A DNA stretch of 64,000 nt from Formosimonas limnophila (GTDB taxonomy: Bacteria; Pseudomonadota; Gammaproteobacteria; Burkholderiales; Burkholderiaceae): positions 171,240-235,239 of the forward strand of contig NZ_BMZG01000003.1 of NCBI RefSeq assembly GCF_014652675.1, given 5' to 3'. A program made the position numbers and the translations under genes. How positions within the stretch are numbered: the stretch's first letter is position 1; every line of letters begins with the position of its first letter. The notes beneath the pieces are model-generated. The model ran no database searches and was not told where the DNA came from. It saw only the letters and a list, made by a program, of their open reading frames with translations. Shown in pieces: positions 13,573 to 37,816 of this stretch.

Positions 13573-13618
13573 ATAAAATCTTAAATAAAACCTTAAACTC
13601 TAATTCAAAAGAGAAATT

Positions 13619-14152
13619 ATGTATATCAAAAAAATAGCTGCAACTTTGATGGTTGTGGCGGTTACAGCGATAGCTGCCTATTGGCTTAGGGCCAGCAAAG
13701 AAGGTGTTGCGGCGTTAATCGTTGGATTAACGGTTGCTGCTATAGCCTATCGGCAATGGAAAACCGAGCAGAATAAGCTAAAGTTAGATTTGTTTGATAG
13801 GCGATATCGTATTTACGAGGTCACGCGTGAGCTGTTGAAATTAATAGATCTGAAAATGAATAGCATGGAACACTTGTACGTGTTTTGGTCGAACACTTCG
13901 GGTGCTGAGTTTTTGTTTGATTCAGATATAGAGAGTTATTTAAAAGAAGTAGAGGATAAAGCACTTAAACTTATCGAAATAAATGACGAACTTGCAGATG
14001 ATGAACGTCAAAACTATTATCTTACTGATGAGCAAAGGCGACAAGGTAGGCTTAAACGTAGGGACTTGAGAAGTTGGTCGCGAGACCAGCTTTACAAGGG
14101 TAATTTGGCGCAACAATTTAAACCATATTTGGCGTTTTCTAAGCTTCTGTGA
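13619..14152 (+). CDS. Unrecognised membrane-anchored protein
   Basis: This 177-residue protein is not one I recognise. Two hydrophobic segments (residues about 5-24 and 30-48) anchor it. The rest is charged and helical, with KLDLFDRRYRIYEVTRELL followed by an acidic middle (IEINDELADDERQ) and a basic end. The LFDRRYxIY motif occurs in several uncharacterised membrane proteins. The gene is AT-rich compared with ppsA and uvrC around it, so it may be a later arrival. A GAGAAATT stretch ahead of the ATG could serve as a weak ribosome site. Confidence 0.6.
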   Translation: MYIKKIAATLMVVAVTAIAAYWLRASKEGVAALIVGLTVAAIAYRQWKTEQNKLKLDLFDRRYRIYEVTRELLKLIDLKMNSMEHLYVFWSNTSGAEFLFDSDIESYLKEVEDKALKLIEINDELADDERQNYYLTDEQRRQGRLKRRDLRSWSRDQLYKGNLAQQFKPYLAFSKLL

Positions 14153-14185
14153 TTTTGTTTTATAGTGTTCTCTTTTAACTGAGAC

Positions 14186-16084
14186 ATGAACTATGGCATG
14201 GCTGAATATATGAACCCTTCTAGCGAACCATTCGACCCGCTCGCATTTGTCGCGACGTTACCCCATTTGCCTGGCGTGTACCGACACATCGATGAAAACA
14301 ATGTGGTTTTGTACGTGGGTAAGGCGCGGGATTTAAAAAAGCGGGTAGCGAGTTATTTTCAGCGTACTGAGTCGCTATCGCCGCGTATTGCGCTGATGGT
14401 GAGCAAGGTGGTGCGCGTTGATGTGACAGTGACGCGCACCGAGACGGAGGCGTTGCTGCTTGAGAATAATTTGATTAAGACGCTGTCGCCGCGTTATAAC
14501 ATTTTGTTCCGTGATGATAAGTCGTATCCGTATCTGAAGATGACGGCGCATGCGTTTCCACGCATGGTGTATTACCGTGGTGCTGTGGATAAGAAGCACC
14601 AGTATTTCGGGCCGTTTCCGAATGGCTATGCGGTGAAATCATCAATTAAGTTGTTGCAAAAAGTCTTTAAATTACGAACCTGTGATGAGACCGTGTTTCG
14701 CAATCGTTCGCGGCCATGCATGCTGCATCAAATCGGGCGATGCAGTGCGCCGTGCGTGGGGCTGATTTCAGAAAAAAACTACGCGCAGGATGTGGCGGCG
14801 AGTGTGCAGTTTCTCAAAGGTGAGTCGGATGAATTACTGCAAAGCTTTCAGGACAAGATGATGGTGGCCGCCGCCGCGTTGGACTTTGAACAGGCTGCGC
14901 AACTGCGGGATAAAATCGCGGCCTTATCGAGCATGATGGCCAGTCAAGCGGTCGAGAGCACTGGTGATGATGTGGATGCGGACATCATCGCAGTTGCATC
15001 CTCTGATGCGCGATACTGTGTGAATTTGGCGATGGTGCGCGGTGGGCGGCATTTGGGTGACAAGGCGTTTTTTCCACAGCACACGCAAGATTGCACGGCG
15101 CAGGATGTGGTGGATGCATTTGTCGCGCAGCATTACATCGATGGGGTGGTACCCTATGTGATTGTGATTGATACCATGCCATCGGATGAGGTGTTGCAAG
15201 CATTGAATGATGTGGCGGGGCGCAAACTAAACTGGGTGAAACAGCCGCAGACGCAGCGCAAAATCTGGTTAGAGATGGCTCAGAGCAATGCGCAACTCGC
15301 CTTGTCACGTCGCATGCAGGAAGTCGGCAGCGCGAAGGTGCGTACCAAAGATTTGGTGCAAGTCTTGCAATTAGAAGAGTTTGAGAGTGACGATGAGCTC
15401 GCGCGTTTGCGCGTTGAGTGTTTTGACATCAGCCATCACTCTGGTGAGGCGACGCAGGCATCGTGCGTGGTGTATCAACACCACGCGATGCAAAATGCCG
15501 AATACCGTCGTTACAACATCAAAGACGTTGCCGCAGGTGACGACTACGCCGCCATGCGCCAAGTGCTGATGCGCCGCTACGAGAAAGTTGTCAGTGGCGA
15601 AGGTGTGCTGCCCGATGTGGTTTTGGTTGATGGTGGTAAAGGACAAATCACCATGGCCAAAGAGGTCTTTGCTGAGTTGGGGTTGGATGAGTTCCTGCTC
15701 GTCGGCGTCGCCAAAGGTGAAGGGCGACGCGTCGGTTTGGAGCAGCTCATATTTGCCGATGGACGCGCAGCGGTAAAGTTAGGTAAACTGTCGCCTGCGC
15801 TCATGCTCATTGCGCAGATTCGCGACGAAGCGCACCGATTCGCCATCACGGGGATGCGTGCCGCGCGTGCGAAGGTGCGCAACGTTTCTCGCCTCGAAGA
15901 AATAGAAGGTGTTGGCGCAAAACGTCGCGCCGCGCTGCTGCAACGCTTCGGCGGTATCACAGGGGTGAAAAGTGCCAGTGTGCAGGACATGATTCAGGTG
16001 GTCGGCATTTCTGAGAAACTGGCGCAGGAGATTTATAAACAGTTGCATGATGATGTGTCGGCTGTTGATGTGGGTGGTGAATAG
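14186..16084 (+). CDS. uvrC: Excinuclease ABC subunit C
   Basis: This 632-residue UvrC carries the N-terminal GIY-YIG nuclease ([23 protein letters not shown]), the cysteine-rich [13 protein letters not shown] segment, a UvrB-binding UVR motif ([12 protein letters not shown]) and the RNase H-like domain with FDISHHSGE. It ends in a helix-hairpin-helix pair ([18 protein letters not shown]). It makes both incisions in nucleotide excision repair. In-frame ATGs at 14186, 14198 and 14210 all lack a clear ribosome site; family alignment allows the third. It is followed by pgsA as in many proteobacteria. Confidence 0.95.
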
Positions 16085-28514: not shown

Positions 28515-28589
28515 TTGACACGGGTTTGTGTCAACACATGCTTCTTCGATAACACATTCCTACCATGGCTTGAACAACCAAAACCACTG

Positions 28590-31457
28590 ATGATTAATTT
28601 AATTCCCGAAACATTCGACGAACAACTGTGGTCACGCATGGTTGAACAGTTGGTTGCTGAAAAAGCCAGCATTTTGATTGTACCTGATACTTCCATGTAC
28701 CTGCCTCACCAAGCAGCATGGCAGCAGTATGCGCGGCGTTTACAGACTGTGGTCATGCCACCTCGGTTGCTGACCTTATTGGACTGGACAAAGCGATTTG
28801 GTTCGCCTGACTGGGATGCGCAGCAATTGAGTCGTGTGTTGACTTGGGCACAGCAGTTACAAAGCACGCCGCAGCTGGCGCAGTGGCTTGGCGCGAATCA
28901 AAAAAATCATCAAGATGTGGCATCGGTTTTGTCTGCGGCGCAAAGGTTGGTTGCCTTGAGTGATGAATTAACATTGCATTTATTGCCTCAGTTTGGTGTG
29001 GATGCAATTGTTGAGGGCAGTGCCTTCTTGAGCGAGGTCGTGAGTCAGACATATCAAAATCACGCGGGCAGTTGGGCATCTGACGAGCTGAATGTTTTGC
29101 TCGAATGCTGGCGATTAGACGTGGTGATGATACCGCCCGTCATGCAGTTTTTGAATGTTCTATCTGAAATGGCTGTGGATGAGCGCGCACCTCAGTCTTT
29201 GTACGTTCTGCGAAATCGTCCGTGGTTTGCTTATGAGCAATGGTTTTATGAATATTATGCGCAGCATCATGATGTGCATGTGTTTGATGTGACAACCATC
29301 CGCTCGCGTGCGGTCAGCGATGGTGTGGCTGAGTGTGCACAGCGTGCTTGGGACGATGCACAAGAGCGAATATTGGCGAAACCCAATGAAACAGGACAAA
29401 AACAGCAGGTTGAGCATGGCGTGCTTTGGTCCGCACCGCATCCAGAGGATGAGGCTTGGGCGGTTGTTCAGCAGGTTTTGCGTTGGCGGGAGGGGGGGCT
29501 ACGCCGAATCGCCATTGTGGCTCTGGATCGAGCAGTGAGTCGGCGGGTGTGGTCACAGTTGCTGCATTGTGGTGTGGCTGTTCGTGATGACACGGGGTGG
29601 CTGCTGTCTACGTCTCGTTTGGCCACCAGTTGGCACGATGGTTTGGCAGTGTGGATGCAAGATGCGTCTGCTGATGAGTTGTTGTCTTGGTTGGCTCATC
29701 CAGCGGTGTATGCGCATGAACCACAGATAAAATCGTTGTTGTGGCGATATTTGAAAGACGTGGCTTTACGACAAGATGTTGTGCTAAAAGGTTGGCACAA
29801 TTGGCAACAAGCAGTGCGCCGTTGTCCGCCAAGCAAGCTTTTGAGAGATGAGGCTGATACGAAGGAGTGTGACTTACAAGCATTGGCAATGGAATTTTTG
29901 GCAAAGGCGTTGGTTGCCAAAAAACAACTGTCGCGCAGCCGCCCACTTAGCGCATGGGCAGATGTATTGATTGAATGGGCAAAAGATTTTGGGCTGTGGC
30001 AAGGTTGGCAAACTGAGGCGGCTGGTGATGCAGGGGCTGTTTGGTTACAAATGTTGCAGTTGTGGCGTGTCGATGAGACGTCTGTCCTGCTCGATTTGGC
30101 TGCTGTGATGCGAGTGATGAATGCCGAGGTTGAACGAGCCACGTTTCGTGCGCACGATGCATCTGATGAGGTACTGCTTTTGCCTTTGGGCAGCACGCGG
30201 ATGCGCGAGTTTGATGCGGTTTGGATTTTGGGGGCGGATGAAACGCACTTACCCGCACCGTCTGAGTCAGCCAGCTTGCTCAACACCGCTGTGCGCACAA
30301 AGCTTGGCCTACCGAATGTCGTGGCCAATCAAGAGCAGGTGCGACGGGACTTTATGGATTTACTGGTCAGCACGCCGCGTGTGCATGGTAGTTTTTGCGA
30401 AACCACCAATGGACAACCGAACGCACCGAGCAGTTGGTGGCGTCAGTGGCTGCGTGCCAGTGGGCAAAGTGTGCAAAGCCTCCAGCTCGATTGGCGTGAG
30501 TGTGCCACACAAACGGCAGCAGCCTCTGCTGCGGATATTCGTTATTGTTTGCCTGATACGGTGTCTGCGAGTGATCTGAACCAGCTCTCTGCGTGCCCCT
30601 ACCAATATTACGTCCAACGTGGCTTGGGTATTCGTGAGCGAGCCTTACCGACTGAGGATGTTTCGCCTGCGATGATTGGTAACCTCTGGCATGCGGTGTT
30701 GGCTGGTTTCCATGAGCGGCGTGGTGAGGTCGATGATGGGCAGATTTTGGTAGAGGTCATTGATGAGCAGTTGAGCCCTCTGTGTGCCGAGAATCCAAGG
30801 TACTGGGTGGTTCGAGAGAATTTCCTTTCGTGGATTCATGCCTATGTGGCTTGGTGGCACAATCGTGAGCAGCAAGGCTGGCGCGTATCTGCTAGCGAGT
30901 TGGCCATTTCGGTGGAGCATGATGCTTTTGATGAGACGCTCGGACAAACAGGCCTATCTCTCAAATGGAAAGGCAAACTCGATCAGCTGGACACGCGTGA
31001 GCAGTTTGATGATTTGACAGGCACTTGTGCGCTTCAAGCGGCTGTGATTGACTATAAAACCAACGACGCGGTTGCCGTGCGAGAAAAGTTTCTCAAGCCG
31101 ATTAAACGCGGTGACGACATTCAACTGGCGTTTTATATTCATTTATTACACGGTCATAGTCAAAACACGGTCGTTCAGGCTGGCTACGTGGGGGTGAGTA
31201 AGCTTGCTGTGAATGAGAGCCAAAAACCACACGAAGGCAGCAATACCTACCCACAAGCATGGCTCAATCAAGATGAGGCGGGAGATGGTGCAGCGCTTGA
31301 ACAAGCGGCAGCGCAACTTCATCAGCAAGTGGGTGAAACATTCACTCGAATGTTGAAAGGCGAGCCGCTGGTCGCAATGGGCGAACTACGGGCGTGCGCG
31401 TATTGTGCGGTTCGTGGGGTGTGTCGTAAAGGTTATACCAAATCCGCTGTTAGCTAA
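28590..31457 (+). CDS. AddB-like PD-(D/E)XK nuclease, lone
   Basis: This roughly 955-residue protein resembles the AddB/RecB-type nuclease-helicase subunit of Burkholderiales. The C-terminal part carries the iron-sulphur nuclease domain: first cysteine in QLSACPYQYYVQRGLGIRER, catalytic residues in AAVIDYKTND, and last three cysteines in ACAYCAVRGVC. The N-terminal part is a degenerate helicase without a Walker A motif (SILIVPDTSMYLPHQAA). AddB normally works with AddA helicase-nuclease in double-strand-break resection, but no addA is adjacent here. The ATG at 28590 is chosen since it lies after the TATAAT. The ribosome site is poor. Confidence 0.78.
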   Translation: MINLIPETFDEQLWSRMVEQLVAEKASILIVPDTSMYLPHQAAWQQYARRLQTVVMPPRLLTLLDWTKRFGSPDWDAQQLSRVLTWAQQLQSTPQLAQWLGANQKNHQDVASVLSAAQRLVALSDELTLHLLPQFGVDAIVEGSAFLSEVVSQTYQNHAGSWASDELNVLLECWRLDVVMIPPVMQFLNVLSEMAVDERAPQSLYVLRNRPWFAYEQWFYEYYAQHHDVHVFDVTTIRSRAVSDGVAECAQRAWDDAQERILAKPNETGQKQQVEHGVLWSAPHPEDEAWAVVQQVLRWREGGLRRIAIVALDRAVSRRVWSQLLHCGVAVRDDTGWLLSTSRLATSWHDGLAVWMQDASADELLSWLAHPAVYAHEPQIKSLLWRYLKDVALRQDVVLKGWHNWQQAVRRCPPSKLLRDEADTKECDLQALAMEFLAKALVAKKQLSRSRPLSAWADVLIEWAKDFGLWQGWQTEAAGDAGAVWLQMLQLWRVDETSVLLDLAAVMRVMNAEVERATFRAHDASDEVLLLPLGSTRMREFDAVWILGADETHLPAPSESASLLNTAVRTKLGLPNVVANQEQVRRDFMDLLVSTPRVHGSFCETTNGQPNAPSSWWRQWLRASGQSVQSLQLDWRECATQTAAASAADIRYCLPDTVSASDLNQLSACPYQYYVQRGLGIRERALPTEDVSPAMIGNLWHAVLAGFHERRGEVDDGQILVEVIDEQLSPLCAENPRYWVVRENFLSWIHAYVAWWHNREQQGWRVSASELAISVEHDAFDETLGQTGLSLKWKGKLDQLDTREQFDDLTGTCALQAAVIDYKTNDAVAVREKFLKPIKRGDDIQLAFYIHLLHGHSQNTVVQAGYVGVSKLAVNESQKPHEGSNTYPQAWLNQDEAGDGAALEQAAAQLHQQVGETFTRMLKGEPLVAMGELRACAYCAVRGVCRKGYTKSAVS

Positions 31458-31477: not shown

Positions 31478-32194
31478 TTACCGCTCACTTGTCCATGCCA
31501 TCAGCATCAGCACCAACCAGAGCGCAATTGATCGTCCAATCTGTCCGTGTGTAGCTTGATAATTATAGTAAAACACTTTGTCCTTAGTGAGTCCACGAGC
31601 ACGCAGGCTCATCGCACCACGCTGTGCATGACGCAACGAAAAAATCAATAGCGGTATCCATTGTGAGAATTTTTGTAAGCCCTTGATGCCGCGTAGTTTT
31701 GCGTTGAGCATGATGCGGCGGCTCTCAGCACGCAGTAGTGTGATGGCGCCGATGCCGACCAACATGGCATAAGCGATTTGGGTGGATAGCCATCGGCGTT
31801 GCAGGGCATAGGTAATCACGTCTCGCACATTAATCATTTTGGCTGATAGCAGGGCCACCCAAGTGAGTGACCAGATTTTGAGTGCGGTTTGATTGGCCTT
31901 GAGTTGTGCTTGCTCGGCTGTGATGTCTTCTGTATGAAAAAAGACATTCAACAGCCAAATTGAGATGGACAGCGCAAAGGCCACTGCCAAACTCTTGAGG
32001 GCAAAGCGCCATGTGATGCCCTGAAAAAAACCGACCGCGCAAAATGCACATGCCCACAGGGCAATGGTGTGCCAGCGAAATGGTAAAGCAACCGCAATGA
32101 AAAAAGCGAACAGCATCAACCACAGGTGAGCGTCATGAAAAAAACGCTCACGGATAGGGGCATTGATTTGGTCGGTGTGGTTTGTGCTCTTCAT
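31478..32194 (-). CDS. ykoC: ECF transporter T component (YkoC/EcfT)
   Basis: This 238-residue membrane protein has about five helices and the two EcfT coupling motifs with the Ala-Arg-Gly signature. They are seen as AKLRGIKG and SLRARGLTKDK. It is the scaffold that joins the ATPases to the substrate-binding S component. It overlaps the ATPase gene by four bases and is the last gene of a TPP-riboswitch-controlled set. The substrate follows from the S component (thiamine or its pyrimidine part). Confidence 0.85.
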   Translation of the reverse strand: MKSTNHTDQINAPIRERFFHDAHLWLMLFAFFIAVALPFRWHTIALWACAFCAVGFFQGITWRFALKSLAVAFALSISIWLLNVFFHTEDITAEQAQLKANQTALKIWSLTWVALLSAKMINVRDVITYALQRRWLSTQIAYAMLVGIGAITLLRAESRRIMLNAKLRGIKGLQKFSQWIPLLIFSLRHAQRGAMSLRARGLTKDKVFYYNYQATHGQIGRSIALWLVLMLMAWTSER

Positions 32195-33528
32195 GCGTTG
32201 ACCACCGTGGTGGTGAGCTTGCCATTGCTGATTTCCCAGATGTGGGTGGCGATGGCTTGTTGAACGGCCTTGTCGTGTGTGATGGCGATGAGCGCGTGTC
32301 CCGCTTGCTTGAGTTGATTGATTAAGCGGACGATGCGGGTGGTATTAATGGCATCTTGACCGAATGTTGGTTCGTCGAGCAAAACGAGCGGGCGTTTTTG
32401 TACGCAGGGGTAGAGCAGGGTGAGGCGGCGTTTCTGGCCTTCGGATAGCTGATGGGGCGAGCTGTCTGCACGACCTTCTAAACCGATTTGCGAGAGTGTT
32501 TGCTCAATGTCCGTAATGCCCTGCTGCTGTAATTCCTCGCCAATGGTGTCAAAGAAAAAGTGACTGTCAGGATGTTGAAACACGTACGACATGTGTGGTG
32601 TGGCTTTTGACGTTACACCATTTAACTCGAATGTGAATTTTCCCGAAAGCTGTTTTTGTGTGCCTGCGAGCGTGTTGAATAATGTGGACTTTCCTGCGCC
32701 ATTTTCACCGACCAATATGGCACAATCGCCTGACTCGAGTGTGAAGTCTGCTGTGAATAGAGGAGCATTTTTGTATCCGATGGTTAAGGCTTGCGCTGAG
32801 AGTTTGGCGTATTTCGTAGTGTTTGGTACGAATGAATGTTTGCTCGGTGTGGCCTGCTCACGATTGACATCTCTCGTCTGGATGTTGAGCCAGTCCGCGA
32901 CTGATATTTCAGAAATCACCCCATCATCTGTCACATGCCAGCACACATCTGCGTACTGGCTCACGTGAGGATGATGGTCAATCAGGAGCATGCCAACATG
33001 CCCCTTTAACTCAGCCAGCGCGGTATAAAAATCATCGCGCATGGCAGGATTAAGAAACGCTGTCGGCTCATCAAATACAATCCAGTTTGGTTCAAATGCC
33101 AGCATAGAGGCGAGCAGCAGTCGCTGTGCCAAACCGTGGCTTAATTGTGTCGTTGGTTTAAGTGTTTGATGTGCCAAGCCAAATCGACTCAGCCAATTCT
33201 GCGCGGTTGTCATGCGCGTCATCGGCCAATGTGCATTTTCCATTGAGAAAAAAAACTCCTCACCGACACGCTCGTGAACGATTTGCGACAAAGGGTTTTG
33301 GGCGAGGTATGCGGCATGTTTCAACACATCAGGTGTATGACCATCGAGCTGACCTGAGATAAACTCAGGGTAAAAGCCCTTGAGTAGATGCAAAAACGTG
33401 CTTTTGCCGCTGCCACTGTTGCCCACCAGCCAAATCACTTGTTTGGATTGTACGGGCAATGGCTTAGCCAAAGACAAACCCGCATCACTGCGGGTGTATC
33501 GAAAAGAAAAGGGGAGAACTTGAGACAT
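32191..33528 (-). CDS. ykoD: ECF transporter double ATPase (YkoD type)
   Basis: This 445-residue protein holds two ABC ATPase domains in one chain. Domain 1 has Walker A VGNSGSGKSTF, signature-like LSHGLAQRLLLA and Walker B WIVFDEPTAF. Domain 2 has Walker A VGENGAGKSTL, signature LSEGQKRRLTLL and Walker B LVLLDEPTFG. Such fused ATPases power ECF transporters. The start codon overlaps the stop of ykoE (TAATG) and the stop overlaps ykoC. The three genes are thus translationally coupled. Confidence 0.9.
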   Translation of the reverse strand: MSQVLPFSFRYTRSDAGLSLAKPLPVQSKQVIWLVGNSGSGKSTFLHLLKGFYPEFISGQLDGHTPDVLKHAAYLAQNPLSQIVHERVGEEFFFSMENAHWPMTRMTTAQNWLSRFGLAHQTLKPTTQLSHGLAQRLLLASMLAFEPNWIVFDEPTAFLNPAMRDDFYTALAELKGHVGMLLIDHHPHVSQYADVCWHVTDDGVISEISVADWLNIQTRDVNREQATPSKHSFVPNTTKYAKLSAQALTIGYKNAPLFTADFTLESGDCAILVGENGAGKSTLFNTLAGTQKQLSGKFTFELNGVTSKATPHMSYVFQHPDSHFFFDTIGEELQQQGITDIEQTLSQIGLEGRADSSPHQLSEGQKRRLTLLYPCVQKRPLVLLDEPTFGQDAINTTRIVRLINQLKQAGHALIAITHDKAVQQAIATHIWEISNGKLTTTVVNA

Positions 33529-34178
33529 TAGGCTCGGTGTTTGGCAATCAGGAAGTTATTAAGTAAGCCTGTTTTGAGTAAACGAAGCGACAGATATCGG
33601 CTCAAAACAGCCGCTAGCACCACCGCTGAAATGATAAAAGCCGTTACTTGAATCAGATTAAAGCATGGCGCGAGTTGCGCATAGTCGCTGGTGAAGAAGT
33701 CGTAGGTATAGCTAAAAAATGCCGAAACACTGGCTGCCAACGCCAACACACCCATAGACCAATTCCGATAAGCAAACAAGGCGAACACCAGCTCCGCGCC
33801 CAGCCCCTGAATCACACCATAAATCACAGCGGATAAACCCCACTGTGTGATGATACCTTCTACAAATGCTGCCACAATCGAGGCGAACAACGCTATTCCT
33901 GGTTTGCGAATCAGGTCACCGAGAAACACAGAGGCCAAAATCCACAGGCCTGACGTTAAATACTTAAGTCCGAAGGGTTTGAGCGCAGGTTTAACCAGCT
34001 CATAGACCAATGTCCAAGCCCAATAGGCCACACCCAAAGCAGCAGCGATGACTGCACATGTGACCCATTCTTGAAGTGTGATTGAACGAAACAATTGTAC
34101 GATGGAGCGCGATTCAGTGTAGACAGCGGGTTCGGTTGAGGCGAGATTTGATTGAGGGGAAGAATACGGATTTGTCAT
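33528..34178 (-). CDS. ykoE: ECF transporter S component YkoE, thiamine/HMP type
   Basis: This 216-residue membrane protein has five to six helices and the YkoE signature around KPFGLKYLTSGLWILASVFLGDLIRKPGIAL. Later come the E-x2-I-x-QWG (EGIITQWG) and QGLGAELVFALF blocks. YkoE is the substrate-binding subunit of a transporter predicted to import thiamine or its hydroxymethylpyrimidine precursor. A TPP riboswitch directly upstream supports this. A 40-residue polar N-terminus (NPYSSPQSNLASTEP) precedes the first helix. YkoEDC is best known from Firmicutes, so its presence here is notable. Confidence 0.87.
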   Translation of the reverse strand: MTNPYSSPQSNLASTEPAVYTESRSIVQLFRSITLQEWVTCAVIAAALGVAYWAWTLVYELVKPALKPFGLKYLTSGLWILASVFLGDLIRKPGIALFASIVAAFVEGIITQWGLSAVIYGVIQGLGAELVFALFAYRNWSMGVLALAASVSAFFSYTYDFFTSDYAQLAPCFNLIQVTAFIISAVVLAAVLSRYLSLRLLKTGLLNNFLIAKHRA

Positions 34179-34183
34179 GTGAT

Positions 34184-34270
34184 TTCCTTTCCTTCGCAGG
34201 CATTACCCTGAGCAGGTTTAGCGGTGTTTCTCAGCCCGACTGTGACAATACAGTGAGCACCCGCAGGTTG
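34184..34270 (-). ncRNA. TPP riboswitch (THI element) controlling ykoEDC
   Basis: On the minus strand the sequence reads GGGTGC, then GCTGAGA, an ACC stretch, ACCTGCTCAGGGTAATGCC and TGCGAAGGA. These are the conserved blocks of the thiamine pyrophosphate riboswitch in order. The 3' end AAGGAAAGG overlaps the ykoE ribosome site, about 8 bases from the ATG. Ligand binding would therefore hide the ribosome site and stop translation when TPP is plentiful. No terminator stem is visible, so control is probably translational. Confidence 0.93.
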
Positions 34271-34400
34271 GTTTGAGCCTTGATTTTACTGAGTTTCTGG
34301 ATTTCTGTAAAGCTATATGTTTTTGACTTTGTTGCGGTTGGGATTTTTGAATCGTTCTACAAAAAACTTGACCGTTCTAAAAAATCACTTAATTTGAACA

Positions 34401-34447: not shown

Positions 34448-36235
34448 TTATTTGGCTGGGATGAAGTCCAGTTGTGGTGTAGTGCTGTTTTTAGTTGGCT
34501 CAGGCTTACTCTCGATTTGAGCCTCTGCAGGTTTGGTTGCCTTGTCGTTGGGTGTTAAGTCCAAACTTGGTGAGGCTTTTTGTGGTGTTGTGCCGTTACC
34601 TAAATCTAAATTTAATGAACCAGATGTAGGAGCGGGGGCTGTGACACCTGATTCAATGGCTTTCGCTTTGGCTCGAGATTGCTCTGTTGGTACGATGCTT
34701 GGCACTGCGATGATGAGCGCGACCATGATGAGCTGGATAATAACGAATGGTATAGCGCCCATGTAAATGTCGCTTGTTTTAACCTCTTTCGGCGCGACTG
34801 AGCGTAAGTAGAACAATGCAAAGCCAAACGGCGGGTGCATGAATGAGGTTTGCATATTCACCGCGAGCAAAACGCCTAACCAAACTAAATCAATGCCGAG
34901 TTTTTCAGCCACAGGTGCGATTAGTGGAACGAGGATGAATGATAGCTCAAAAAACTCAAGGAAAAAGGCAAGGAAGAAAATCAATAAATTGATCACAATC
35001 AAAAAGCCGATTTCACCACCCGGAATCGCGAGTAGCAAATGCTCGACCCATTTATCTCCTTTAACGCCTTGAAAAACCAAGTTAAACACGGTTGAGCCAA
35101 TCAAAATAAACAATACGAAACTCGTGAGCTTGAGTGTGGAGTCCACGGCTTGTTTGGTCAGGCCGAAATTCAATCGACCTTTCGCCAGTGCTAATAATAT
35201 CGCGCCCAAAGCACCGAGTGCACCACCTTCAGTTGGTGTAGCGATGCCGAGTAACACCGTGCCGAGCACCAAAAATATTAGAGCGAGCGGTGGAATCAAA
35301 ACAAAAATCACGCGTTCGGCCATGTCGCTGAGTAAGTTGAATTTGGCCAACTGATTGATTTTTGCCAAAGCATAAACGACGGATATGGAAAATGCAGCGG
35401 CCAAAATTTTGGCGCGACCCAAAGAGTCTTCGATTGTGTCCGCACCGTATAAAAAATGTTGTTCAGATACATCGCGAGTCACGGTGACGTAAAACCCATA
35501 AGCGACACACAGAGTGAGTAGCATCATAAACAACAACGACTGAACACCTGAGCCAAATTTGGTTGGGTTAAAAATTCGCGCACTTTTGGGCAGGGCAGGC
35601 ACCCACGATGGCTTGACGATGGAGACGATTAAAATATAAACCATGTACATTCCAGCGAGTAGCAAGCCTGGAAGAATCGCTGCCTCATACATCGCACCGA
35701 CGGGTTTATTTAATTGGCTGGCCAAAATAATCAGTACCAATGATGGCGGGATGATTTGCGCTAATGTGCCCGATGAGGCAATCACGCCTGTTGCGACGCG
35801 TTTGTTATAGCCGTATTGGAGCATGAGTGGCAGTGAAATTAAGCCCATGGCGATGACCGATGCGGCCACGACACCTGTGGTTGCAGCCAAAAGCATGCCG
35901 ACCAAAATCACCGCGTAAGCCAAGCCACCACGAATAGGACCAAATAATTGACCGATGACTTTGAGTAAATCCTCTGCCATTTTTGACCGCTCCAATATCA
36001 GTCCCATGAAGGTGAAAAACGGAATCGCCAATAATGTATCGTTTGTCAAAATGCCATAAATGCGACTTGGCAAAGCGCGCATCAGATTCGGGTCAAGCAC
36101 GCCCAGAGCGATGCCTGCGACCGCGAATAGCAGACCGTTGGCCGCGAGAGAAAATGTAATGGGAAAGCCTGACAGCAAAAAAACCACTAAGCCGAAAAAC
36201 ATGATTGGCGCGAGATTGTTGGCTAAAAATTCCAT
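34448..36235 (-). CDS. dctM: TRAP transporter large permease DctM with tail
   Basis: This 595-residue DctM-type permease is longer than the classic 430 residues. It contains the family's long middle insertion (about residues 210-310), as in the large subtype, and the transport core motifs LAIPFFTFMGLILERS, ATTGVVAASVIAMG and VLLGIATPTEGGALGALGA. It has about 14 helices. From about residue 530 a polar tail of 60 residues follows. It repeats an L-D-L/F motif (SLNLDLG, SPSLDLTP, PQLDFIP) separated by Pro/Lys/Thr segments. The tail is not part of the usual family. The substrate is unknown because no DctP is adjacent. Confidence 0.88.
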   Translation of the reverse strand: MEFLANNLAPIMFFGLVVFLLSGFPITFSLAANGLLFAVAGIALGVLDPNLMRALPSRIYGILTNDTLLAIPFFTFMGLILERSKMAEDLLKVIGQLFGPIRGGLAYAVILVGMLLAATTGVVAASVIAMGLISLPLMLQYGYNKRVATGVIASSGTLAQIIPPSLVLIILASQLNKPVGAMYEAAILPGLLLAGMYMVYILIVSIVKPSWVPALPKSARIFNPTKFGSGVQSLLFMMLLTLCVAYGFYVTVTRDVSEQHFLYGADTIEDSLGRAKILAAAFSISVVYALAKINQLAKFNLLSDMAERVIFVLIPPLALIFLVLGTVLLGIATPTEGGALGALGAILLALAKGRLNFGLTKQAVDSTLKLTSFVLFILIGSTVFNLVFQGVKGDKWVEHLLLAIPGGEIGFLIVINLLIFFLAFFLEFFELSFILVPLIAPVAEKLGIDLVWLGVLLAVNMQTSFMHPPFGFALFYLRSVAPKEVKTSDIYMGAIPFVIIQLIMVALIIAVPSIVPTEQSRAKAKAIESGVTAPAPTSGSLNLDLGNGTTPQKASPSLDLTPNDKATKPAEAQIESKPEPTKNSTTPQLDFIPAK

Positions 36236-36264
36236 GGGTTGTCTCCGTTATGATTTGATTCTGA

Positions 36265-36861
36265 TTAGTCTTTTGTCGCTTCGATGTAGGCTTTGACTTC
36301 ATCATCTGGGTTGTGCCCACCTTTACGAAACTCATGGTAAGCAACCAATCCTTTGAGATAACCGATGCGTTTAATCAATTCAGAAAAACCTTGAATCAAC
36401 AACATTAAAAACCCTAATGGAATCAATAGCTTGAATGGCCATAAAACCAAAGGGCTGTTGCCCGAATGCTCATCGCTGAGGATGGACTGTTCGACAGCGC
36501 CAATGCTGTACCAAAGAATCAAAATGCAGGTAGGAAACATAAATAGCAAAATACCCACAATATCGCCCCATACCTGAGCACGTTCTGAGTAGCGTGACGC
36601 GAGTACATCAATACGAACATGCTCGTCTTTTTTCAGCGTGTAAGCTGCACCGAGTAAAAACATACAGCCAAAAAAGAAAAACAACGACTCAAACATGGTG
36701 TTTGAATACGTTTGAAAAAATGTGCTGGATGAAAACACTTTGCGTAGTATGGCGTTAAGCGAGCAAATTAAGACGGCTATTAATACCGTCCACTGAGCTA
36801 CTTTAGCGATTTTTTCATTGAAACGGTCAATAATGTCAGATAGGCGCAGTAAACCATGCAT
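36265..36861 (-). CDS. dctQ: TRAP transporter small permease DctQ
   Basis: This 198-residue protein has four membrane helices. It shows the DctQ blocks NTMFESLFFFFGCMFLLGAA, YTLKKDEHVRIDVL and KLLIPLGFLMLLIQGFSELI, the last containing the conserved GF-x3-L pattern before a basic stretch. It forms the membrane core with DctM, whose gene starts 29 bases later. No periplasmic binding-protein gene lies upstream within 160 bases, so it must be encoded elsewhere. Confidence 0.9.
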   Translation of the reverse strand: MHGLLRLSDIIDRFNEKIAKVAQWTVLIAVLICSLNAILRKVFSSSTFFQTYSNTMFESLFFFFGCMFLLGAAYTLKKDEHVRIDVLASRYSERAQVWGDIVGILLFMFPTCILILWYSIGAVEQSILSDEHSGNSPLVLWPFKLLIPLGFLMLLIQGFSELIKRIGYLKGLVAYHEFRKGGHNPDDEVKAYIEATKD

Positions 36862-37027: not shown

Positions 37028-37615
37028 TTAAATATTGATACCAACACCCATTAAGGCATTGCGCAAAGCCAAGCCCCCAAGCACAAAAAAAATCACCGAT
37101 GCGATGATGTGAATGGTTTTGGTTGGGAGTTTATCCGCGAAGCGGTGACCGAGGTAAACTGCAGGGACATTGGCCAGCATCATACCCAGAGTCGTACCAA
37201 GCACCACGGTGAAAAATTCGTGATAACGCGCGGCCAATGCGACGGTGACAATTTGAGTTTTATCACCCATTTCGGCTAAGAAAAAAGCCACCACTGTGGT
37301 TGTGAATACGCCGAGTTGTTTTTTTGGAATCACCACTTCGTTTTCGTCGAGCTTATCGGGAATCAGAATCCAGCCGGCCATCAAAACGAATGAGGCGACG
37401 ATGACCCAATTCAAAATATTGGGGCTTAAAACGTTTGATAAAAGCGCACCGACAGCACCCGCACCTGCGTGGTTTGCGATGGTGGCAACGAAAATGCCCA
37501 AGATAATCGGAATGGGTTTACGGTAACGAGCGGCGAGAATCAGCGAGAGAAGTTGTGTTTTATCACCCATTTCGGCAAGGGCGACGACACTGGTTGAGAC
37601 AAGGAGTGATTCCAT
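37028..37615 (-). CDS. GDT1/UPF0016 (TMEM165-like) cation exporter, manganese type
   Basis: The 195-residue protein consists of two repeats with the family signature E-x-GDKT: VVALAEMGDKTQLLSLILAA and FFLAEMGDKTQIVTVALAA. Each repeat has about three helices, and an acidic linker DKLDENEVV separates them. UPF0016 proteins export Mn2+ or Ca2+; the bacterial homologue MneA/MntX-type is a Mn2+ exporter. The ATG at 37615 is chosen because the sequence upstream of it is a manganese riboswitch, not coding. A GGAG-type site lies just upstream. The family's two acidic motifs are intact. Confidence 0.9.
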   Translation of the reverse strand: MESLLVSTSVVALAEMGDKTQLLSLILAARYRKPIPIILGIFVATIANHAGAGAVGALLSNVLSPNILNWVIVASFVLMAGWILIPDKLDENEVVIPKKQLGVFTTTVVAFFLAEMGDKTQIVTVALAARYHEFFTVVLGTTLGMMLANVPAVYLGHRFADKLPTKTIHIIASVIFFVLGGLALRNALMGVGINI

Positions 37616-37621
37616 AAATAA

Positions 37622-37802
37622 ATTAACCTCGGCTGGCAAACACGAATGACCACGCGCGCTCCCCAGCCATGCAGAGTGTACGTAGTCAATAGTCTTGCCA
37701 AATCTGGTAATCATGAGTGCCATGCTGTGAACACAGAGAACGACAGCAAGTATGTTGACACCCATCTTTTCTAAAGAGAAAAGAGGCTACTCCCCAATGA
37801 CG
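37622..37802 (-). ncRNA. yybP-ykoY manganese riboswitch
   Basis: On the minus strand the leader reads ATTGGGGAGTAGCCTC, then GGTGTCAACATACTTG, and further down GCTGGGGAGCGCG and GTTTGCCAGCCGAGG. GGGGAGTAGC and GTCAACATAC are the sequence signatures of the yybP-ykoY element, as in the E. coli mntP leader. The downstream gene is a candidate Mn2+ exporter, matching the known target class. The element runs from the promoter to about 8 bases before the start codon, so control of ribosome access is plausible. I inferred the boundaries by eye. Confidence 0.85.
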
Positions 37803-37805
37803 GGG

Positions 37806-37816
37806 CGATTGTAGCA
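37806..37816 (-). promoter_or_regulatory. Extended -10 of the manganese riboswitch transcript
   Basis: On the minus strand TG-C-TACAAT (-10 at 37808-37813) lies just upstream of the GGGGAGTAGC block. Transcription would then start within a few bases of the riboswitch. No good -35 is visible. Confidence 0.45.

Follow-up and report, generated by a model that had tools for sequence, protein, structure and literature searches.

YkoEDC of Bacillus subtilis is a group I ECF importer (PMC5037267), and its substrate-binding S component, YkoE, is represented by the thiamine-bound structure 5EDL. According to PMC5037267, YkoE of B. subtilis contacts thiamine through W49, E77, Q95, D131 and Y46. Systems of this kind carry two labels in print, being called transporters both of thiamine and of its pyrimidine part, HMP; PMC6593275, for example, gives YkoEDC2 for vitamin B1 and YkoEDC for HMP. 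A Variovorax genome is described as having no ykoFEDC in PMC10409787, and no published account of YkoEDC in Hydromonas was found in the literature on YkoE, ykoEDC, Hydromonas, thiamine kinase/ThiL and TMP uptake, represented here by extracts.

The window, a stretch of 64,000 nucleotides analysed as a whole, carries a locus of this type. A prediction made from the letters alone had placed there a YkoEDC transporter under a TPP riboswitch, with S component, double ATPase and T component overlapping one another. The observation is confirmed as real, and the features, all on the minus strand, are as follows.

34274..34172, minus strand: TPP riboswitch aptamer, matched by RF00059 in a local scan
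34178..33528, minus strand: ykoE, 216 aa, S component (substrate binding), PF09819
33528..32191, minus strand: ykoD, 445 aa, two fused ABC ATPase domains
32194..31478, minus strand: ykoC, 238 aa, predicted T component (transmembrane coupling)

By their ORF coordinates, ykoE and ykoD overlap by 1 nt and ykoD and ykoC by 4 nt, and all three reading frames are intact. The locus shares with B. subtilis YkoEDC the order E-D-C, the fused double ATPase, the S-component fold, four of the five thiamine contacts and a TPP riboswitch in front, and differs from it in its Gram-negative Burkholderiaceae host and in an operon without ykoF. It belongs with the YkoEDC-type transporters, an already known kind of system. 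Judged from sequence, it would act as a TPP-repressed group I ECF importer of ready-made thiamine in a host that cannot make thiamine, a reading to which we assign a probability of about 0.8.

The predicted identity of the three proteins was borne out by their domains and folds. YkoE scores 114.3 bits against Pfam PF09819 (E 5e-33; cut-off 25.2), and 5EDL is its sole match among PDB sequences (E 1.6e-22). Against the predicted structure of YkoE (pLDDT 80.4), the same entry alone gives a fold match with E <= 0.001, at E 7.9e-9 and a query TM-score of 0.79. In the 5EDL alignment, from which contact positions were counted by hand with the chain numbering offset by 2, W79, E107, Q124 and D160 of the window's YkoE correspond to W49, E77, Q95 and D131 of the B. 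subtilis protein, and Y46 is replaced by S76. The four kept residues are identical across all five YkoE-bearing members of the genus in an alignment of 23 rows. At the Y46 position these rows hold Y, F, N, S, T, A, V, D or E, and it is variable among the Bacillota rows too.

YkoD contains two PF00005 (ABC_tran) stretches, 147.6 bits in all, and its top NCBIfam name is ECF ATPase, under that model's cut-off. YkoC gives no Pfam or NCBIfam match at E 1e-3, and no Pfam match even at E 1; three of eight aligned YkoC family members are matched by the Pfam model CbiQ. The predicted structure of YkoC (pLDDT 80.9) matches the EcfT chains 7nnu_D, 8bms_C and 4huq_T and CbiQ 5x3x_q, with E down to 3.3e-5, and a YkoC homologue comes after ykoD in relatives. 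The modelled fold identifies YkoC as the putative T component encoded with ykoE and ykoD.

The riboswitch match covers positions 1-105 of the 105 in the RF00059 model and scores 54.2 bits (E 4.3e-10), 0.1 below the gathering score of 54.3 bits. Checking the TPP model, as had been proposed, gave a divided outcome: the element before ykoE does not appear when the whole window is scanned with Rfam at gathering score, whereas the local scan recovers it. A default scan misses it because of that 0.1 bits, and the miss is an accident of the threshold, as a TPP match (52.7 to 60.2 bits) stands directly before ykoE in every one of the eight YkoE-bearing genomes found among 101 relatives. With genomes denoted by G numbers and the window's own as G000, the leaders of G001, G004, G005, G026, G045 and G100 are over the gathering score and that of G002 (52.7) is under it. 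G000 has one TPP riboswitch only, at ykoE.

The element had been said to end on the ribosome site of ykoE, and the aptamer match indeed reaches the ykoE start codon; it extends to the start codon region in the Hydromonas genus and in G026, G045 and G100, whereas in a B. velezensis record the aptamer ends ~180 nt before ykoE. Because an aptamer that reaches the start codon leaves a terminator no room, control of translation start appears likely, and the ribosome-binding site is probably hidden upon TPP binding. Folding of the leader alone lends the riboswitch no support: its minimum-energy structure differs from that of the aptamer, with a stability no better than that of shuffles (z -0.51). 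An RNAalifold consensus of 11 leaders, namely those of the eight YkoE-bearing relatives and three other diderm loci (L120, L121 and L124), recovered 14 pairs, five of them with changes on both sides; P1 is absent from this consensus.

The window comes from a betaproteobacterium in the family Burkholderiaceae, genus of Hydromonas, consistent with the predicted betaproteobacterial origin, and its genome comprises 2.22 Mb in 55 contigs with a completeness of 100 and a contamination of 0.01. Other members of the genus include Hydromonas duriensis DSM 102852 (G005), Hydromonas sp. HYPMRC01 (G002) and an uncultured Burkholderiaceae bacterium (G001). Thiamine pathway enzymes were searched for in 16 genomes, eight with YkoE and eight without, and control genomes gave matches in each of the searches for thiC, thiE, thiG and thiD. 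ThiC was found in 8 of the 16, ThiE/TenI in 9, ThiG over cut-off in 8 and ThiD over cut-off in 9, and none of these occurs in G000, where the best ThiD score is 93.1 against a cut-off of 204.95 bits. ThiL exceeds its cut-off in 14 genomes, G000 among them (327.7 bits). Since thiC, thiE, thiG and thiD are absent, thiamine cannot be made in G000 by the known route, and the auxotrophy that had been suggested for this host is supported. The same thiC/thiE/thiG/thiD/ThiL pattern is seen in G002 and G005, which makes an assembly gap in G000 unlikely; G003 also has this enzyme pattern, but at 85% completeness and without a YkoE match. Two other members of the genus, G001 and G004, possess thiC, thiE, thiG and thiD alongside ykoEDC, and each has three TPP riboswitches. 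In the ThiC tree these two group with G012, G015 and G023, not with G045, and the ThiL tree gives no resolution between the Hydromonas genus and G026/G045. The state of G000 is like B1 auxotroph variant A, ThiL/ThiN only, as outlined with Table 1 of PMC6593275, in which the last step alone is left and B1 is imported, and is unlike it in having ThiL without a recognised thiamine kinase or TPK.

A ThiD-like protein of G000 (G000:C4:58872-59630) was considered as thiD and rejected, as it scores 93 against 205 bits and is without the GTGC motif. Its gene (L040 1480-2376; also in L039, L041 and L045) lies beside one read as hemL, and proteins like it coexist with a true thiD in G001, G004, G006, G026 and G045. 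In four aligned ThiD-like proteins, GANT or GANS stands where the true thiD rows have GTGC. We treat the G000 protein neither as thiD nor as a probable thiamine kinase.

The original prediction left it open whether thiamine or HMP is imported, and took the absence of thiC together with the presence of thiD as a sign of HMP salvage; thiC and thiD both proved absent. We know of no route from HMP to TMP without thiE and thiD. With no thiE and no thiD over cut-off, and so nothing left that would activate HMP or couple it with thiazole, HMP salvage cannot work in G000, and intact thiamine or its phosphate ester must enter, so that the thiamine half of the prediction stands and the HMP half falls. 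Salvage of HMP is rejected for the window's genome, unless an unrecognised thiD/thiE pair exists. As an account of this transporter, HMP import could draw on G001 and G004, where thiD, thiE and thiG occur with ykoEDC and imported HMP would be usable, and on the Fig. 1 legend of PMC12236431, in which ykoCDEF is labelled HMP. It is nonetheless extremely improbable, given that four of the eight YkoE-bearing relatives (G000, G002, G005 and G100) are without thiE and without thiD over cut-off, and that 7 of 11 further YkoE records (G100 included), from genomes for which completeness is not given, have no thiE at E 1e-3.

Two relatives outside the genus point the same way. In G026 (L103) and G045 (L104), ykoEDC and thiM-thiE-thiD lie back to back, with a cytX-like gene nearby and three TPP riboswitches; the proteins of this thiamine salvage island were named from L103, and the layout of L104 is parallel. 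The cytX-like gene, whose best match is cytX, under that model's cut-off, is a putative HMP transporter under its own TPP riboswitch. HMP would therefore have a carrier other than YkoEDC in these two genomes, and thiamine is the likely substrate of YkoEDC there. From gene content and conserved residues, thiamine appears to be the best-supported YkoEDC substrate. Genomes that have YkoEDC under their sole TPP riboswitch, and are without HMP-using enzymes, provide natural evidence for uptake of whole thiamine (or its phosphate).

The transporter might instead be a little-used relic, with B1 entering through another importer such as thiBPQ or PnuT. This seems very improbable, as the frames are intact, the riboswitch has been kept as the only one of its kind in G000, and the four contact residues are retained in all five members of the genus.

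ThiL can act only once the imported thiamine has been converted to TMP. Thiamine pyrophosphokinase (PF04263) was found in 3 of the 16 genomes (G026, G045 and G100) and in none of the Hydromonas genus, G000 included. ThiK is a member, we assume, of PF01636 (APH family), which matches two proteins in G000. The first is best named AmgK, at 368.6 bits under a cut-off of 550, and its gene is followed by that of a sugar-nucleotidyltransferase-like protein read by eye as MurU; the second is the homoserine kinase ThrB, over cut-off. A thiamine kinase or TPK gene was thus not found in G000 by the PF04263 and PF01636 searches. APH-type kinases number two each in G000, G002 and G005, the names AmgK and ThrB being taken from G000 alone. 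G100 shows the opposite state, with TPK, no ThiL over cut-off and no other thi genes.

If YkoEDC imported TMP (or TPP), ThiL would finish the cofactor and no thiamine kinase would be needed. Such a reading is compatible with the retention of ThiL in G000, G002 and G005, all the ykoEDC-bearing auxotrophs of the genus, in which TPK and ThiE were not found, and with the naming of both APH-type kinases of G000 as AmgK and ThrB. G100, which has TPK and no ThiL over cut-off, fits as well, as does the replacement of the thiazole-side contact Y46 by the smaller S76, and Salmonella thiBPQ is, by the title of a reference, a carrier of thiamine and TPP. However, the Y46 position varies freely among the 23 rows, also where TPK exists, and S76 was rejected as a mark of TMP binding. 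ThiL could also persist through its position in a gene cluster, where its neighbours in L064 look by eye like nusB and ribH. Moreover, according to PMC13254938, nanomolar thiamine supports growth of P. aeruginosa thiE mutants, whereas thiL mutants show no growth on thiamine, which implies that a thiamine kinase must work there, and so in some Proteobacteria. On balance, TMP import as the function of this transporter is unlikely, and for the missing step an unrecognised kinase is favoured over it.

With thiamine as the imported substrate, low TPP would leave the ribosome-binding site free and ykoEDC would be translated; YkoE would bind thiamine, and the ATPases would then drive its release into the cell. 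A kinase not found in the PF04263 and PF01636 searches would turn the imported thiamine into TMP, ThiL would turn TMP into TPP, and the TPP so made would close the riboswitch. More tentatively, it is possible, at somewhat less than even odds, that YkoEDC of the Hydromonas genus imports TMP straight to ThiL or, equally, that an undescribed thiamine kinase family operates there. If true, either would fill the B1-salvage gap in ThiL-keeping Proteobacteria, for which the genus offers a clean case of ThiL without a recognised thiamine kinase, common to the type-strain genome of H. duriensis.

A different arrangement occurs in G013, a Burkholderiaceae genome in which thiC, thiE, thiG and TPK were not found. 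At G013:C616 near 13600-14530 (L014 / L098), a TPP riboswitch is followed by an APH-type kinase and then by a PnuC-family transporter, an arrangement suggestive of a thiamine kinase paired with its importer. Nothing similar to this kinase/PnuC arrangement is present at the ykoEDC of Hydromonas.

YkoE was detected in 8 of 101 near relatives, comprising five of the six members of the genus, G026, G045 and G100, the last from another family. Of 369 genomes sampled from the class, only that of the window is over cut-off, with two more matching weakly below. YkoEDC under a TPP riboswitch is rare in the Burkholderiaceae. In a YkoE tree of 23 rows, which has no Actinobacteria and whose diderm group was collected with patterns from Hydromonas-type YkoE, the Hydromonas genus joins G026/G045 with support of 100/99, and both lie close to Spirochaetota, Cloacimonadota and another betaproteobacterial clade, with the five Bacillota rows separate. 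In other diderm MAGs (Neisseriaceae, other Burkholderiales, Cloacimonadota and Spirochaetota), YkoE is 35-43% identical to that of the window, and a TPP riboswitch is found at gathering score in 8 of 10 loci, just before ykoE on the same strand in 6 of 10. These MAGs differ from the Hydromonas genus in their separate YkoE clades, in a T component that is barely similar in sequence and in the presence of thiE in some of the genomes.

Horizontal transfer, raised in the original prediction, is no more than possible: YkoE occurs patchily, but it groups with diderm sequences in the tree, the operon is similar in GC to its surroundings, and five of the six genomes of the genus share it. A recent transfer from Gram-positives is not supported by this tree, in which the Bacillota rows and the diderm group containing the window's YkoE are separate. 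Directly upstream of ykoEDC lies a TRAP transporter pair, DctM and DctQ (window 34448-36861, minus strand), which adjoins ykoEDC also in G002 and G004, and not in H. duriensis (G005). The operon has a GC of 0.45-0.51 against 0.41-0.55 in its surroundings, and this agreement, together with the conservation of the TRAP pair in G002 and G004, argues that the operon is no fresh arrival.

Several further features were recorded in the window and its relatives. An AddB-like / PD-(D/E)XK protein of 980 aa is encoded at 28515-31457 on the plus strand, convergent with ykoC and 20 nt apart from it. G024 possesses ThiL and gave no match for thiC, thiD, thiE, thiG or TPK; at G024:C15 near 37600 (L013), a TPP riboswitch precedes, as judged by eye, a TonB-dependent-receptor-like gene. 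Elsewhere in the window, a yybP-ykoY manganese riboswitch (37621-37807, minus strand, 76 bits) precedes a GDT1-family cation/proton antiporter gene (37765..37028). The listed ORF start of this gene is inside the aptamer, and translation probably begins at the ATG near 37615, as counted by hand.
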